From: Deltaproteobacteria bacterium
Lineage (GTDB): Bacteria > Desulfobacterota > UBA8473
Length of the DNA: 17,302 bases
NCBI GenBank assembly: GCA_030621455.1
Contig: JAUXHQ010000007.1
Coordinates: 1 to 17,302, forward strand
Direction: 5' to 3'
Positions 10,992-17,302 of the stretch are shown piece after piece (the stretch's first letter is position 1; each line of letters begins with the position of its first letter). A program made the translations under genes and the position numbers. The notes beneath the pieces were generated by a model. It worked only from the letters and a program-made list of their open reading frames with translations. It made no database searches and was not told the DNA's origin.

Positions 10992-11894
10992 CTATTCGGT
11001 GGCGTAATTTTCCTTTAGGTCCATGAGTTTCTTTATGTAGAATTCTCTATGGGCGAGTCCCATCTGGTTTGAGATGTTGTCCAATACATGATTAATATAG
11101 TGCCTGATATCGATACCGTATTTGTTTTGATGGCGTTCATTTGCCCGGTGGATCACAAGGACAGCGTAATAACTTACCAGGGCTTGAATCCTGGAATCCC
11201 TCCGTAGTAGATACGATCTACCTGCTAGGGTGTCAAGGAAGAACCCTGCATACTCATACATAGCCTCCTCGCTGGAAGGACAGATCCCCAAACTATCCTT
11301 GCACTGATCCTTAGAAGAGAACCATCCATAGAACAGGGCAGAGATGATTTCCACAATGTCGGACTCGTTGGCCAACACCTCCTTTACGAACCTAACCTCT
11401 TTTTTGCCAAGCATCCTGTAGAAATGTGCCATATTTTTTACCAGACCATAGATATCTGTTGTTTCTCCTGAGACTACCGGTCTTTCTCGAGAAAGCTTAC
11501 TTACCGCCCTTTGGGTCCATTCATATACCCCACCCTTCCAATTATACGACTTAACGTATTCTTTTTTATCCAGATAGGAAAAGAAGGTAAGTATCTGACG
11601 TTTCAACTCTTCACAATCTACCTCTTTAATTACTTCAGAGGGGAGGATCGGCTTTTCTCCGAATGCATCCACGAGTTTCCCCTCGGGTAAGGATGTCTCA
11701 TGTTTCTTTATCTCATCCTGAAGTTGAACGATTTTTTTCTGCAGTCTGGATGTCTTTTCCTCCCACGTTTCCTTCTTTTTCTCTCTGGTCTCCTCCAACG
11801 CTTGAGGATGCCAAACCATGAATTGATAGTAAGCCAGACAACCGAGCGCCACTAAGACCAGACCCACGATCACTATCTTCGCAGACCTTCCCAT
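10992..11894 (-). CDS. Membrane-anchored coiled-coil protein of unknown function
   Basis: I do not recognise this family. From ATG 11894 the product has 300 residues. One hydrophobic span (about 6-24, KIVIVGLVLVALGCLAYYQ) follows a short basic start, so it is probably a signal anchor with the rest outside the cytoplasm. C19 sits in ALGC, which is a poor lipobox. A charged coiled-coil-like stretch follows (about 34-66, rich in E, K and Q). The rest (about 90-297) looks helical, with aromatic clusters such as ISALFYGWFSSKDQC, C198 and C205 as a possible pair, and YYAVLVIHRANERH. The start is chosen over 11921 because GGGGGAAG lies just upstream; the ATG is one base past the stop of the HdrA-MvhD gene, so they are cotranscribed. 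A membrane-tethering or accessory role for the Hdr proteins is a guess from position. Confidence 0.7.
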   Translation of the reverse strand: MGRSAKIVIVGLVLVALGCLAYYQFMVWHPQALEETREKKKETWEEKTSRLQKKIVQLQDEIKKHETSLPEGKLVDAFGEKPILPSEVIKEVDCEELKRQILTFFSYLDKKEYVKSYNWKGGVYEWTQRAVSKLSRERPVVSGETTDIYGLVKNMAHFYRMLGKKEVRFVKEVLANESDIVEIISALFYGWFSSKDQCKDSLGICPSSEEAMYEYAGFFLDTLAGRSYLLRRDSRIQALVSYYAVLVIHRANERHQNKYGIDIRHYINHVLDNISNQMGLAHREFYIKKLMDLKENYATE

Positions 11895-11895
11895 C

Positions 11896-14316
11896 TTACT
11901 TCCCCCTCTTTTGTTTCTCAAGGAGTCTCCTTGTATCTTCTATCTCCTCAGAGGTAACAGTAGCCTTCAGTTCCGCCATCTTTTTCATGACTCCGGAAAA
12001 ACGGACACCTTCAGCGGCACTGATCCATTCTAATTGCAATCGTTCTTTTCGAATACCCAGCTTTTTCATCCGTTTCCAGATTTTCTCTATCCTTTTCTGA
12101 GTCCAGTGGTTAGCGTCGATATAGTGACAGTCCCCAAAGTGACATCCTGAGACGAGTACCACCGGAGCGCCTTTCTCAAAGGCCCTCCAAATGAATTTCT
12201 TGTCTACCCTGCCGCTGCACATGGTCCGGATGAGACGAACCTGGGGAGGATACTGCAACCGCGAGACCCCCGCAAAGTCGGCTCCGGCATAGGAACACCA
12301 ATTGCACGCAAACGTAAGAATCTTGTCTGCCGGGTCTTCCTCAAGGATTGAATCGATCTGGCTTTCTATCTGAATATCGGTAAAGTGTCTCATGGTGATG
12401 GCATCCGTGGGACATTCCGCCGCACAGGTCCCACATCCTGAGCATGCAGCCTCATTGACGTGAGCCGGGATCTTGTTGTCCTTATCTAATGTAATGGCAT
12501 TGTAAGGACATACCTTGACACAGATACCGCAAACTTTACATTTTTTCTCGTTTACGATAGCGGTGATCGCCTCTATGGTTATCTCTCCGCTATTCATGAG
12601 ACGCATGGCACGTGCAGACGAGGCCGACGCCTGAGTGACGGAATCCTTGATGTCTTTGGGACTTTCCGCACACCCGGCAAAGAATATGCCTTTGGTGGCG
12701 GAATCAACCGGCTGGAGTTTAGGATGTGCCTCCAGATAGAACCCGTCCGAGGTTGTCTGGAGTGTCAACATCTCCTGAGTCCCCTTGGCATCCTCTCTAG
12801 GCTTCACCCCGAGAGAGAGCACCACCATCTCAGCGTCATGTTTCTCCAGCTCATTGGTGGCGGTATTCTCCACTGTAAGAACCAGGTTCTTGGTGTCAGG
12901 GTCTTCCCTTATCTGTCCGGGAAGTCCTCGGATGTAGCGGACCCCTTCACCTTTGCTCCTCCTGAAAAGGTCCTCAAAACCCTTGCCAAAGGCCATGATA
13001 TCTATATAGAATACCTTCACGTCCATCTCAGGATAGTGCTCCTTGAGCATGAGGGTATCTTTGACGGTATTCATGCAGCAGATATTACTGCAATAAGGTC
13101 CCCCTTTCTTGGAGGATCGAGAGCCCACACATTGAATAAAGGCTATGGATCGAGGCGCTCTACGGTCGGTAAACCGAATGATCTCTCCCTTTGTGGGTCC
13201 CCCGGCATTTATGAGCCTTTCGAACTCCATGCTGGTGATAACATTTTCATAACGTGTATATCCATATTCATCCATCTCTTGAGGGTCGTACACGTCCATC
13301 CCTGTGGCAACGATGACCGTACCTACCTTGAGTTCGATCTCTCTATCCTTCATGTCGAAATCAATACAACCCTTTTCGCAGGCCTTCATGCACTTCCCGC
13401 AGATAATAGGGTCACTTCCCAGACACTCTTCAGGGTTAATGACATATGCGGAAGGTACCGCCTGGGGGAAGGGTATGTAGATCGCCTTGCGAGAGCTGAG
13501 CCCCATATTGAACTCATCCGGCATAACGACAGGGCAATCCTCAGTACAAATCCCGCAAGCGGTACATTCATTTTCATCCACCAACCGGGCCTTCTTATGC
13601 ACTGTTACATCAAAGTTTCCCACATAGCCTTTTACGGATGTTACCTCACTGAGAGTAAGTACCTTAACTCGGGGATGCCGACCGACATCCATCATTTTTG
13701 GGCCGAGAATTCAGATGGAACAATCCATAGTAGGGAAGGTCTTGTCCAGTTGTGCCATGATCCCCCCGATGCTTGGTTTTTTCTCTACAAGGTACACTTG
13801 ATAGCCGCTGTCCGCTAGATCCAACGCCGCCTGGATACCGGCCACTCCTCCGCCTATTACGAGGCTTGATTTGGCAACGGGAACCTTCATCTCCTCCTGA
13901 GGTTCGAGAGCACGAACCCTGGAAATGGCCGCCTTTACAAGGTCCTTGGCTTTTTCTGTGGCCTCTCTCGGTTGACTCGAATGCACCCAACTACACTGCT
14001 CTCTCAGGTTGGCCATCTCCATCAAGTACGGGTTTAGCCCTGCCTGTGAACACGCCCGTCGGAACGTGGGCTCGTGGAGCCTCGGGGAACAGGACGCTAC
14101 CACCACCCTGTTCAATCCGTGCTCTTTTATGTCATCCTGAATTAACTGTTGACCTGGTTCAGAACAGATGTACTCGTTTTCTTTGGAAATCACCACATTT
14201 GCCAGCCCCTCTGCAAAACGGGCTACCGCATCACAATCAACAGTGCCTGCAATGTTTAATCCACAGTGGCAGACATAAACGCCGATCCTCAACTCACCGC
14301 TTGAACTTTCAGCCAT
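11896..14316 (-). CDS. hdrA: HdrA-MvhD fusion selenoprotein (heterodisulfide reductase subunit A)
   Basis: One gene interrupted by a single in-frame UGA (13713-13711), read here as selenocysteine 202; 806 residues. Order: HdrA N-terminal domain with [11 protein letters not shown] (C16, C18), C51, C76 and C108; FAD Rossmann motif GGGVAG (155-160) and [19 protein letters not shown]; Sec202 in SI-U-ILGPKM; inserted ferredoxin (C251, C254, C257, C261; C298, C306, C309, C313); C396, C409, C413 and C414; second FAD half [14 protein letters not shown] near 543-556; two C-terminal [4Fe-4S] motifs (C593-C603, C625-C635); MvhD domain from about 665 ([13 protein letters not shown]671, C674, C700, C725, C730). 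In characterised HdrA the FAD bifurcates or confurcates electrons and MvhD feeds them in. Most HdrA proteins have Cys at position 202, and methanogen and deltaproteobacterial Sec versions are known. The start is ATG 14316, with GGGAG nine bases upstream. Confidence 0.93.
13668..13713 (-). promoter_or_regulatory. Bacterial SECIS element with its Sec UGA codon
   Basis: On the minus strand the UGA (13713-13711) is followed by a stem with GGATGTC (13690-13684) pairing with GGCATCC (13679-13673), including one G-U pair, and an apical loop GGUC (13683-13680). A lower stem, CTCGG (13707-13703) with CCGAG (13672-13668), is continuous on the 3' side. The exposed G and U in the loop are the known SelB-binding feature of the E. 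coli fdhF SECIS, and the UGA-to-loop distance of 27 nt is in the bacterial range. It lies wholly inside the coding region, as bacterial SECIS elements do. Confidence 0.85.
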
Positions 14317-14353: not shown

Positions 14354-15508
14354 CTAATCCAATGCATCCGCAAAAAGCGATACCATATCCTTTATCTCTA
14401 TACTCCCATCATCACAGAAGTCCTTCATCGTGCACTGGAGGTGTATGAGACACTTGGGGCAGGAAGTTACCAACAGGTCGCTTCCTGTGGCTAACGACGC
14501 CTTCAGGCGTTTCATCTGGATGCTCTTGGAATGAGCTCCACAGCCCACCCATGCGGAATTGCCGCAGCAAAAATCCCCTATCTTTGAATCCGGTGTTTCT
14601 ATGATGTCTAACCCTGGGATTTGTCCCGATATATTCCTGAGCGCTTGAGAAGTGTTTTTATAGTAACTCAGACGACAAGAATCCTTTAAGGTGGCTTGCA
14701 AAGGCAAGAGTTTCAGACCGAAATTATCGGTCTCCTTCTTTAACTGCTCTTCAATAAGTTCATAGATATGAGTTATTTTCAGGTCAAAACCCTCTATCAC
14801 TTGGGGGAATATCTCACTAAAACTATAGAAACATTCAGGGCAGGACGTAATGATCTCCTCCACTCCATGGTCCTTGATATCCTCATAGCTCTCTTTTGCA
14901 AGCCTGGCAAAACCTTTTTGATCTCCTGCCCAGAAGAGGTCGTGACCACAGCACCTTTCATTATCCAATACCACAGGCTCGATATTGCATCGGTTAAGTA
15001 TCTTCAATGAATTGACGGCTATCCGAACCATATTTAAGTTAAGGTTCTTGAAGAAGACATCGAAATAGGGCAGGCAACCAACGAAATACATGACCTTGCC
15101 CTCTGATAGGGTCTTAACCTCTGCGGGGATAAAGCCCTTCCTGTTTTGCCTTATGCCCGGCGAGGACATCATCCGCATTAATGAAAACATTGCCCCACCG
15201 TGGCTGTAGACACCCGGTTTTCCGGAGTCAATCCACCGGCTTCTCAACAACCGGACAAAATTGGAAAATTTGACGCCAGAGGGACACCTGTCATCACACC
15301 TGCCACACGTAAGACATGCCCAGATAAAGTCTTGTACGTAAGGATCACTGTCTCCTTTTTCAATGACCCTGCTGGCCGCTAGTCTTGGAGAGAAAGGTTT
15401 CCCCGTCTCAGCAACGGGACAGGCCCCTGTACATTTACCACAATCCAGGCACTGGTAGATGCCCGTCTCTTTTATGATGAGACTAAGGTCTTTGTCATAA
15501 TCCGTCAT
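14354..15508 (-). CDS. HdrC-HdrB fusion (HdrD-like FeS / CCG-domain protein)
   Basis: The 384-residue protein joins two Hdr subunits. The N-terminal HdrC part has two [4Fe-4S] motifs: C20, C23, C26, C30 and C65, C68, C71, C75 (CLTCGRCDDRCPSG). The C-terminal HdrB part has two CCG domains: C145, C186-C187, C223 and C226 (ERCCGHD, SCPECF), and C278, C314-C315, C323, C350 and C353 (DFCCGNSAWVGCG, SCPKC). In methanogen HdrB these motifs hold the non-cubane [4Fe-4S] clusters that reduce a disulfide; all ligands needed are present. The same layout occurs in HdrD and GlpC-like proteins. The bacterial substrate is unknown. No membrane span is seen. The start is ATG 15508, with GGAAGAG upstream; it lies 12 bp after the mvhD stop and 37 bp before hdrA. 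Confidence 0.9.
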   Translation of the reverse strand: MTDYDKDLSLIIKETGIYQCLDCGKCTGACPVAETGKPFSPRLAASRVIEKGDSDPYVQDFIWACLTCGRCDDRCPSGVKFSNFVRLLRSRWIDSGKPGVYSHGGAMFSLMRMMSSPGIRQNRKGFIPAEVKTLSEGKVMYFVGCLPYFDVFFKNLNLNMVRIAVNSLKILNRCNIEPVVLDNERCCGHDLFWAGDQKGFARLAKESYEDIKDHGVEEIITSCPECFYSFSEIFPQVIEGFDLKITHIYELIEEQLKKETDNFGLKLLPLQATLKDSCRLSYYKNTSQALRNISGQIPGLDIIETPDSKIGDFCCGNSAWVGCGAHSKSIQMKRLKASLATGSDLLVTSCPKCLIHLQCTMKDFCDDGSIEIKDMVSLFADALD

Positions 15509-15520
15509 TTCGCTCTTCCA

Positions 15521-15928
15521 TCATCCCGACACAGGACTCTTCCCGAAAGTCTCCATCTTCTCCACAAACCGGTGCAAATCAGAGGATAGCTTCTCAGACT
15601 CGTGAGCCAAATAGTATGTGAACTGGACTCTCTCTCTTTCCAGTCCTAATAAGTCAAGTATCTCTCGGGTATGGTCGATGTTTCGCTCGGCCAGGTCCGG
15701 CCCGGTTCCATGCTGACAGTTGTCTGTCCGGCACCCAACAATCAAAACCCCGTCGGCCCCTTTTTCAAAGGCCTTGAGGAGAAGGGGAGTACTGACACGG
15801 GCCGCACATATGACCCTGATCACATTGACCTCTCCGGGAACGGGTATCCATTGTTCTCCCATGCCGGTATAACAAGACCATGGAGCCCAGTTGCATAGGA
15901 ATGCCAAAACTTTGATTCTTTGTCTCAT
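15521..15928 (-). CDS. Free-standing MvhD/FlpD-like hydrogenase delta subunit, [2Fe-2S]
   Basis: This 135-residue MvhD-family protein matches the MvhD domain fused to the neighbouring HdrA: VLAFLCNWAPWSCYTG, VIRVICAARVSTPLLLKAFE and GADGVLIVGCRTDNCQ. The cysteines are C12, C19, C41, C66 and C71. The usual CNWC pair is replaced by C-x6-C (CNWAPWSC), a variant that also occurs in other hydrogenase iron-sulfur subunits. In methanogens MvhD carries electrons from hydrogenase or formate dehydrogenase to HdrA. It overlaps the upstream HdrA-like gene by four bases (ATGA, 15925-15928), so it probably partners that protein, while the fused HdrA carries its own MvhD domain. The start is ATG 15928. Confidence 0.88.
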   Translation of the reverse strand: MRQRIKVLAFLCNWAPWSCYTGMGEQWIPVPGEVNVIRVICAARVSTPLLLKAFEKGADGVLIVGCRTDNCQHGTGPDLAERNIDHTREILDLLGLERERVQFTYYLAHESEKLSSDLHRFVEKMETFGKSPVSG

Positions 15929-17302
15929 CTCAGCATCACTTCAATCAGTTGTTCCGTCTGTTTTTCGGTTTTGTATGTAGTGTCTACTGCGCCTGTGGGA
16001 CATATGGAGACACATGTGCCGCATCCCTGGCAGTGCATTTCAATAATAGCCGCTGTCTTTTGTTCAGGGTCATCTCCTCTCATCTCTATTGCTGAAAAAG
16101 GACATGCCTCGAAGCAGTGGCCACACCCCCTGCATAGATCCTGGTCTACCTGGGCTACTATGTTCTTGGCCCTTATCTCTGACTTTCGTAGAAGCGCCGC
16201 CACCTGGGCAGCCGCGGCTGCGCCCGGCAGGCCTTTTTTGTTGAAGGCATTTTCTCCGGGGATCATTATTTCAAAGATACCCGGTATCCCTGTGCTCCAG
16301 GGAGAAAAACTGGGAAACCCAGGGAGTGTCCTGTGACTAAACCCTTTCCTCAACAAATTGCCGGTCAAGGGAACGTTTTCCAAGTCAACCCCTGAAAAGA
16401 GTATGGCCGATACCCTCAAGCGCGACGGATCAGTTCCGTTGAACGCCATCTTGAAGCTTCCCAGATGACCCTCCAGGGCTTTCATTTGGAGCCCCGGCAG
16501 GTAGGTAATTCTGCCAAGATTGATCTCCTCCCGGATACCCTCAACTGTGAGGGCGTAAGATGTATCTCCCCCAACCACATCTTTGTCAGAGAGAGTGTCC
16601 CCCTCATCTATCAGATACACCCGGTAACCCATCTTTTCCAGGTTAAGGGCTGCCATTAAGCCCTCCGGTGTAACGCCTGTCACGGCTACAGTCTTTTGGA
16701 CGGTTCCTTTTTGGCCAGGCAGTTCTTTCTGGAATTTCACTCTGGACAAGGCGCACTCTATCATATTCTTACCGCCCTCGAGTATGCCTTGTAAGTCCAT
16801 ACCACGCCTGGTAGCCAGAAAATTCTTCAGGTTAATCATTTCAAAGATGGAGGGATCAAGTCCTTGTTTGTTGAAAAGGTTTCCTTTGCAGCGCAACCTC
16901 TGGTCATTGCATGCGGTGCATATCATGTCCAGGGCACAGCAAGAACAGGCAGCCAGGACTGCCCTTGTGATCCCCTTTTCTTCTATAGCCGAAGCGATGG
17001 TTCCGGCCCCATCCGGATGGCAGGCTGAAGGCAAGACTTCACTGTGTATTACTTCCTCGAACTTGGCGCTGAACCTCAGCAACTCGTTTATTATTTCCTT
17101 ATTCCCAATGGTCTCGTTGCATGAACATACGAAGAGGCCTGTTCTCACTTCCTTTTTGTATAGGGGGGGCAGCCTTCTGTCACCCGGGGGAATCACCTGC
17201 ATTCGAGACGTGAGAAACGCCGCAGCCCTGCCGGCCAAACCTGCCCCAAAAAGAAGGGATTCCTCCAGATTCCTCCCTTCACCGAACTCACTTTCGTGGA
17301 AT
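15925..17302 (-). CDS. HdrA-like iron-sulfur protein, N-terminus beyond the window
   Basis: The frame is open to the window edge (458 residues visible, first full codon 17301-17299), so the gene starts outside; a TTG at 17238 is not needed as start. Counting from the edge, residues 15-34 (SLLFGAGLAGRAAAFLTSRM) look like the end of a preceding FAD domain. Next comes an HdrA N-terminal-type domain with FVCSC (C59, C61), C94 and a Cys-rich ACSCCALDMICTACNDQRL (C119, C121, C122, C128, C131, then C138). A Rossmann-like segment follows whose glycine motif is degenerate (VTGVTPEG). Two ferredoxin motifs end the protein: C390, C393, C396, C400 and C424, C427, C430, C434. There is no inserted ferredoxin and no Sec. 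It probably relays electrons for the Hdr complex; FAD binding in the visible part is doubtful. Confidence 0.85.
   Translation of the reverse strand, partial: FHESEFGEGRNLEESLLFGAGLAGRAAAFLTSRMQVIPPGDRRLPPLYKKEVRTGLFVCSCNETIGNKEIINELLRFSAKFEEVIHSEVLPSACHPDGAGTIASAIEEKGITRAVLAACSCCALDMICTACNDQRLRCKGNLFNKQGLDPSIFEMINLKNFLATRRGMDLQGILEGGKNMIECALSRVKFQKELPGQKGTVQKTVAVTGVTPEGLMAALNLEKMGYRVYLIDEGDTLSDKDVVGGDTSYALTVEGIREEINLGRITYLPGLQMKALEGHLGSFKMAFNGTDPSRLRVSAILFSGVDLENVPLTGNLLRKGFSHRTLPGFPSFSPWSTGIPGIFEIMIPGENAFNKKGLPGAAAAAQVAALLRKSEIRAKNIVAQVDQDLCRGCGHCFEACPFSAIEMRGDDPEQKTAAIIEMHCQGCGTCVSICPTGAVDTTYKTEKQTEQLIEVMLR

Follow-up and report, generated by a model that had tools for sequence, protein, structure and literature searches.

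The sequence between 11896 and 14316 on the reverse strand is very probably a single gene, hdrA2, encoding a selenocysteine-containing HdrA2, that is, an HdrA-MvhD fusion of 806 residues with selenocysteine (Sec) at residue 202. The analysis covered the whole 17,302-nucleotide stretch of DNA, referred to here as the window. Coding through the UGA at codon 202, and a constraint on the RNA beside it, are demonstrated by comparison with homologous sequences; from these we infer the insertion of Sec itself.

The only internal stop in hdrA2 is the TGA at 13713-13711 on the reverse strand, codon 202, which we read as Sec (C-S-I-U) on the basis of the translation and the comparison. Reading through it gives 806 residues, with both halves in one frame and no frameshift, and the coordinates, frame and lengths are as described in the initial annotation, which had proposed a single UGA within one gene. 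Gene calling with translation table 11 yields exactly the two proteins which that annotation had foreseen, namely a 201-aa open reading frame (ORF) at 14316-13711 and a 599-aa ORF at 13695-11896. When residue 202 was entered as Cys, the 806-residue protein matched NF040770, the NCBIfam HdrA2 profile, with 1224.5 bits against a cut-off of 1100, and the match extended over profile positions 1-776 of 777. Pfam places FAD-binding and ferredoxin domains in the protein, with Fer4_21 at residues 586-642, followed by the MvhD/FlpD domain at residues 666-782 (11971-12321, reverse strand; PF02662, 1.8e-46; 5odc_D, 1.6e-41). Since the NF040770 match is full-length and PF02662 lies at 666-782, the MvhD part is the normal C-terminus of the HdrA2 family. 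The fusion singled out by the initial annotation is therefore real, but it is a mark of HdrA2 in general, not a feature specific to this operon.

For the fetched loci, the column-202 codon was taken directly from the nucleotide sequence. We dropped 18 alignments with a local score below 300 (paralogues with little of the motif, which include three Cys codons and no stop) and merged identical 75-nt stretches, leaving 76 distinct sequences; the counts do not include L071, where the codon is N, or L076 and L086, where the codon was not reached. The initial annotation had tied its reading to the presence of Cys or Sec at this position in homologues, and this is what the alignment gives, with 32 TGA, 41 Cys and three Thr. 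One of the 41 Cys sequences is a decayed copy in L162, and neither TAA nor TAG occurs at this column among the 76. The TGA sequences comprise 28 of the fused HdrA2 type, the window included, and four unfused HdrA, one of which sits on contig C28 of the window's own genome. Cys is found in the four Cys members of the HdrA2 clade and in most other HdrA. The three Thr codons occur in HdrA paralogues (L032, L033 and L035); HdrA copies without Cys197 are described as likely heterodimer partners in excerpts of PMC9012536.

Two further kinds of stop-bearing match were considered and rejected as sites of Sec. Some HdrA matches in relatives carry TAA or TAG, which might have been recoded as Sec. Nine of these matches were read, and in all nine the stops lie elsewhere; column 202 is Cys in eight (L038, L153-L155 and L157-L160) and Thr in one (L033). 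A match with one TGA near 15925 fits the hdrL stop where it overlaps the start of mvhD.

A tree of 69 proteins was built with column 202 blanked, leaving out rows shorter than 550 residues, L084 and the L162 remnant. One fully supported clade holds 28 Sec and four Cys forms, and Sec on the tree needs three state changes, at least two of which are forced by supported branches. The 28 Sec rows of the tree differ by one from the 28 sequences used for the hairpin below, having L066 for L078. The named Sec-HdrA2 members of the clade belong to the Thermodesulfobacteriota, Chloroflexota, Fidelibacterota and Coatesbacteria; Desulfocarbo indianensis SCBM (L048) is an example of a strain that carries this gene. 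For estimates of selection, the window gene was compared with four relatives from its family (L018-L021, 85% identical). Upstream of the UGA, dN was 0.075-0.085 and dS 1.2-1.9; downstream, dN was 0.091-0.101 and dS 1.1-1.4. The low dN/dS 3' of the UGA indicates that the half which follows it is under selection as protein.

The initial annotation had also noted a hairpin with a GGUC loop after the UGA, and this is present at 13690-13673 on the reverse strand (GGAUGUC-GGUC-GGCAUCC), with a 7-bp stem, the loop at 13683-13680 and 27 nt between UGA and loop. As set out in excerpts of PMC13188914, the model of the bacterial SECIS element specifies a loop of 3-9 nt on a stem of 4-16 bp, a G in the first two loop positions, a UGA-to-loop distance of 16-37 nt and a minimum free energy of −7.5 kcal/mol or lower. 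Applied by hand, all four criteria agree with the hairpin (loop 4 nt and stem 7 bp, GG, 27 nt, and −14.6 kcal/mol for the 54 nt containing it), in line with the SECIS element that the initial annotation had expected here. Folded alone, the window hairpin does not stand out (z = −0.98; 29 of 200 shuffles are as stable), and Rfam gave no match in the whole window at gathering scores, nor in 13640-13730 at E up to 10. The support for the hairpin comes from comparison of sequences and not from single-sequence folding.

All seven pairs are formed in 26 of the 28 TGA sequences of the HdrA2 type. Over these sequences (n = 28, 26 distinct) 98.4% of cells are paired, as against 95.7 ± 0.6% in shuffles, none of 500 being as high, and 23.6-56.0% in slid versions of the hairpin alignment. 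The number of cells changed on both sides (seven) and the covariation score were above all 500 shuffles, while the number of pairs with a change on both sides (one) and the number of pair types (three) did not rise above the shuffles, of which 478 of 500 were as high. The sole covarying pair of the seven, at columns 29/36, is UA in 18, CG in seven and UG in one (n = 26), the last of these, a G-U, being the window's own sequence. In terms of codons, Val GTC occurs with Arg CGA in 20 of 21 sequences and Ala GCC with CGG in six of six, and the 28th sequence has ACG with CGG (Fisher p = 2.4e-5, relatedness ignored). As the change between CGA and CGG is silent, this coupling points to the RNA. When the tree is taken into account, four of four independent comparisons go in the same direction (p = 0.125), too few for significance. 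The loop is GGTC in 28 of 28 TGA sequences of the HdrA2 type; elsewhere in these genes only 28% of the codons for Gly are GGT, and CGA and CGG together account for 31% of those for Arg. At the same columns, GGTC occurs in none of 44 non-TGA homologues, none of which forms seven pairs and four of which form six.

The four unfused Sec-HdrA sequences are without the HdrA2 hairpin at these columns, where they form one to three pairs. Two of the unfused HdrA loci with TGA at column 202 are L003/L161 (G000:C28:2760-4715) and L172 (G003), and their SECIS, if any, would lie elsewhere than the HdrA2 hairpin columns.

The assembly to which the window belongs (G000) consists of 292 contigs, totals 1.92 Mb and has a completeness of 78%. 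It has selA (632 bits) and selB (360 bits), both over their cut-offs. In this 78%-complete assembly no selD was found and no selC passed its cut-off, the best match (42 bits against 47) being a tRNA-Ser according to ARAGORN. A congener, G001, whose HdrA2 is 96% identical to that of the window, has a tRNA-Sec (selC) with a UCA anticodon at 81.5 bits, together with selA, selB and selD. The sel genes on which the initial annotation had partly staked its reading are thus present in part in the window's own genome, with selC and selD found in the congener. Of the family's eight genomes (G000-G007), five have a strong selC match (74-82 bits), seven have selA and four have selB over the respective cut-off, and six have selD. 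In G002, which is 98% complete, the UGA gene is kept and no selB passes the cut-off; assembly gaps may be the reason, and are the sole explanation we offer. Over all 59 genomes searched, matches above the cut-off were found for selC in 52 (some of them weak and near the cut-off), selB in 48, selA in 51 and selD in 52. The window's genome contains further UGA-Sec candidates, an HdrA on C28 and an MvhD on C238 (G-U-MEGEC), which fits a Sec-using organism. The latter, at L167:552-971 on the reverse strand (G000:C238), is the third Sec candidate in this genome, and adjoins a 1398-aa frame that by eye has HdrA- and GltD-like sequence.

If a TGC or TGT codon had mutated to TGA, or had been misread as TGA, hdrA2 would be a pseudogene or a sequencing error. 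A standard caller does see a broken gene here, the genome is a draft, and a truly decayed copy of HdrA2 exists in the congener (L162). However, the TGA recurs at this codon in 28 distinct HdrA2-type sequences, which come from many assemblies and span several phyla, both sides of it are under purifying selection and the hairpin is conserved, all of which makes this explanation extremely improbable and upholds the central claim of the initial annotation, that of a selenoprotein and not two broken genes. Alternatively, the 201-aa and 599-aa products could be two separate proteins, made by termination at the UGA and restart at the ATG at 13695. An ATG is indeed found 18 nt downstream of the first base of the UGA in 28 of 28 sequences. 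Yet the five codons from the UGA to the ATG encode I-L-G-P-K in all 28 whilst varying at synonymous sites, and the Cys members of the clade run as one ORF. In addition, inspection by eye shows no Shine-Dalgarno-like run ahead of the ATG, in contrast to the start of the gene, which has GGGAG in front of it. We therefore consider termination and restart highly unlikely.

It is also conceivable that the UGA is read as another amino acid, either as Cys through a selC*-type tRNA-Cys and SelB*, or as Trp. Such tRNA/SelB pairs are known (excerpts of PMC7609411), and some of the tRNAs have a UCA anticodon; the congener G001 has a tRNA-Sec-like tRNA-Cys beside a second SelB. The anticodon of this tRNA-Cys is GCA, however, and not UCA, and an ordinary tRNA-Sec with UCA is present in G001 too, along with selA and selD. 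Furthermore, secY, rpoA and aspS in the window (named by eye from their translations) end naturally in UGA, so a code with UGA as Trp is not in use here. The chance that an amino acid other than Sec is inserted at codon 202 is accordingly very small, and the reading of hdrA2 as a Sec-containing protein is retained in what follows.

The tRNA-Cys (GCA) and second SelB of G001 adjoin the decayed HdrA2 on contig C245 (L162/L176), where the HdrA2 remnant lies at about L162:3055-3701 on the reverse strand, SelB at 1044-2996 and the tRNA at 940-1030, both on the forward strand. This pair resembles the known selC*/selB* pair as described in excerpts of PMC7609411. The remnant has a Cys codon at column 202, its frame is broken soon after and most of its middle is missing; despite the Cys codon it keeps a perfect SECIS hairpin, shifted by one base. 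Its DNA is 76-84% identical to the intact family genes, and intact copies are found elsewhere. Second tRNA-Sec-like tRNAs also lie beside second SelB genes in L163 (G051:C36), L164 (G012:C163) and L165 (G036:C11), with the anticodon GCA in L163 and L165 and UCA in L164. In G051, a second selD adjoins the second tRNA/SelB (L163).

In the window, hdrL, which is truncated where the contig ends, is followed by mvhD, hdrCB and hdrA2, all on the reverse strand. The hdrCB gene (14354-15508) encodes an HdrD-like fusion of a 4Fe-4S dicluster with two CCG domains (PF02754, 3.1e-21; PF13183, 2.7e-12), and the HdrB and HdrC partners are thus encoded beside hdrA2 as one protein. A separate mvhD (15521-15928; PF02662, 4.9e-32) has a start that overlaps the stop of the upstream gene. 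The latter (15925-17238) is the 3' part of an hdrL-type gene with pieces of HdrA and a GltD-like domain, in a frame that is open to about the contig end; its 437-aa ORF corresponds to the last part of a protein that in the congener G001 has 1131 aa. In G004, the HdrL homologue (L173:4538-7927) has Pyr_redox_2, Fer4_20 and GltD-like matches as well as HdrA-like ends. It is preceded by three genes of the 2-oxoacid:acceptor oxidoreductase type (Pfam), of which alpha alone exceeds the cut-off of its NCBIfam model (562 bits, with the cut-off at 411); the matches of beta and gamma fall below theirs. Sec-HdrA2 is preceded in L054 (Fidelibacterota) by part of a 2-oxoacid oxidoreductase alpha and by beta, after which comes a GltD-like protein that includes FlpD, and in L049 (Chloroflexota) by beta; gamma-like ORFs were recognised by eye in L046 and L067. 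Parts of the operon thus recur in Thermodesulfobacteriota, Chloroflexota and Fidelibacterota. The hdrA2 gene is the last of an operon of 2-oxoacid oxidoreductase, HdrL, MvhD, HdrCB and Sec-HdrA2, the oxidoreductase genes being those seen in relatives.

Of 34 loci (33 with TGA plus L071, where the codon is N; several are the same gene from two collections), 26 have an HdrCB homologue no further than about 4 kb upstream of HdrA2, and the other eight loci start inside the HdrA2 gene or hold at most about 1.7 kb before it. Among the four Cys-type loci, whose flanks extend no more than 1.5 kb to either side, three have weak partial HdrCB matches (28-31%) and one has none. No gene for a hydrogenase large or small subunit adjoins hdrA2 in the window. 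Downstream is an ORF of about 300 aa (10992-11894, reverse strand) with no Pfam or NCBIfam match. Among the 38 loci compared it was matched in the congener only (93.5%), and it may lie outside the complex. By eye, its N-terminus is hydrophobic.

As the initial annotation stated, the class is not new: Sec-HdrA is already known in bacteria, and this gene is a further member. In the excerpts consulted, PMC1794560 gives 16 such genes, PMC8318568 reports them too, and PMC2702500 describes Sec-containing HdrA1, HdrA2 and also HdrL in Desulfobacterium autotrophicum. The 2026 review PMC13188914, again in excerpt, already lists the heterodisulfide reductase alpha subunit, NF040770, as a CxxU Sec family, and in the window gene this position reads C-S-I-U. 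The window gene shares with these Sec-HdrA of bacteria and Sec-decoding archaea (PMC1794560, PMC13188914) a UGA-encoded Sec, the CxxU motif and a bacterial SECIS just 3' of it. It differs from the operons hdrA-frhD-frhG-frhA (with glpC in bacteria) of the PMC1794560 excerpts in having MvhD fused, and in that its neighbours in the window include no gene for the large or small subunit of a hydrogenase. D. autotrophicum HRM2 (Sec-HdrA1/A2, Sec-HdrL1/L3) likewise combines Sec HdrA, MvhD, HdrL and HdrD-type HdrCB fusions in one organism, its HdrL being an HdrA/glutamate-synthase fusion; in HRM2, however, HdrA1-A3 and MvhD are separate colocated genes, as described in excerpts of PMC2702500, whereas the window has a single HdrA-MvhD fusion, with an HdrL-type gene in the same gene row.

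Extension of HdrA2 with MvhD-like sequence is described in excerpts of PMC6019823, and those of PMC12054007 set type Ia HdrA off by its MvhD fusion. The domain order, with MvhD fused C-terminally, is that of HdrA2 of Methanosarcina acetivorans (HdrA2B2C2; 'type Ia' HdrA). Unlike that protein, the window's HdrA2 is bacterial, has HdrC and HdrB as one protein, carries Sec at CxxC/U and adjoins HdrL and, in relatives, 2-oxoacid oxidoreductase genes. It also resembles HdrABC-MvhADG of Methanothermococcus (5odc), with 816 bits to HdrA over residues 8-658 and 145 bits to MvhD over 664-780, but in 5odc MvhD is separate and the partner is a NiFe hydrogenase, and no such partner is seen beside the window gene. 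In the open-access literature searched, we found no paper on a gene row of 2-oxoacid oxidoreductase, HdrL and Sec-HdrA2, nor on Sec-HdrA2 in Marinimicrobia.

In the mechanism we propose, SelB, tethered to the hairpin that follows codon 202, would bring Sec-tRNA to the UGA, giving the 806-residue flavoprotein, which by homology would bind the bifurcating FAD. By analogy with the solved HdrABC-MvhADG, electrons would enter via MvhD, with one branch passing through HdrCB to a disulfide-type acceptor and the other through the HdrA clusters to ferredoxin. In 5odc, the HdrA residue (5odc_A) that corresponds to residue 202 in the alignment is 197, and Cys197 is described, in excerpts of PMC9012536, as ligating in trans the N-terminal FeS cluster that belongs to the other HdrA, in the ferredoxin branch. 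On the strength of this alignment, Sec202 probably provides, in trans, a selenolate ligand to the N-terminal [4Fe-4S] cluster in a partner HdrA-type subunit of that branch, where it would tune the cluster or its stability. The position is thus not simply near a cluster beside the FAD, as the initial annotation had it, since the equivalent Cys197 is described as serving a cluster of the other HdrA.

Judging tentatively from the operon, possible electron partners are 2-oxoacids, in view of the KorABC-type genes, and NAD(P)H, in view of the GltD-like part of HdrL. A more speculative proposal, which we think rather unlikely as a whole, is that Sec-HdrA2 lies at the heart of a complex not described before, KorABC-HdrL-MvhD-HdrCB-HdrA2, which would bifurcate or confurcate electrons, couple 2-oxoacids, NAD(P)H and a disulfide, and have passed between bacterial phyla together with its SECIS. 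HdrL has the N-terminal domain of HdrA, and no Cys197 equivalent was seen in it; in a heterodimer, Sec202 of HdrA2 would therefore complete the HdrL cluster.

A gene that standard callers split is now corrected, and fused, Sec-bearing HdrA2 can be placed in uncultured anaerobes of at least four phyla, the Thermodesulfobacteriota, Chloroflexota, Fidelibacterota and Coatesbacteria. If Sec202 does ligate the cluster of its partner, the natural Sec and Cys forms of this one clade would offer a direct test of what selenium does in the low-potential branch of flavin-based electron bifurcation.
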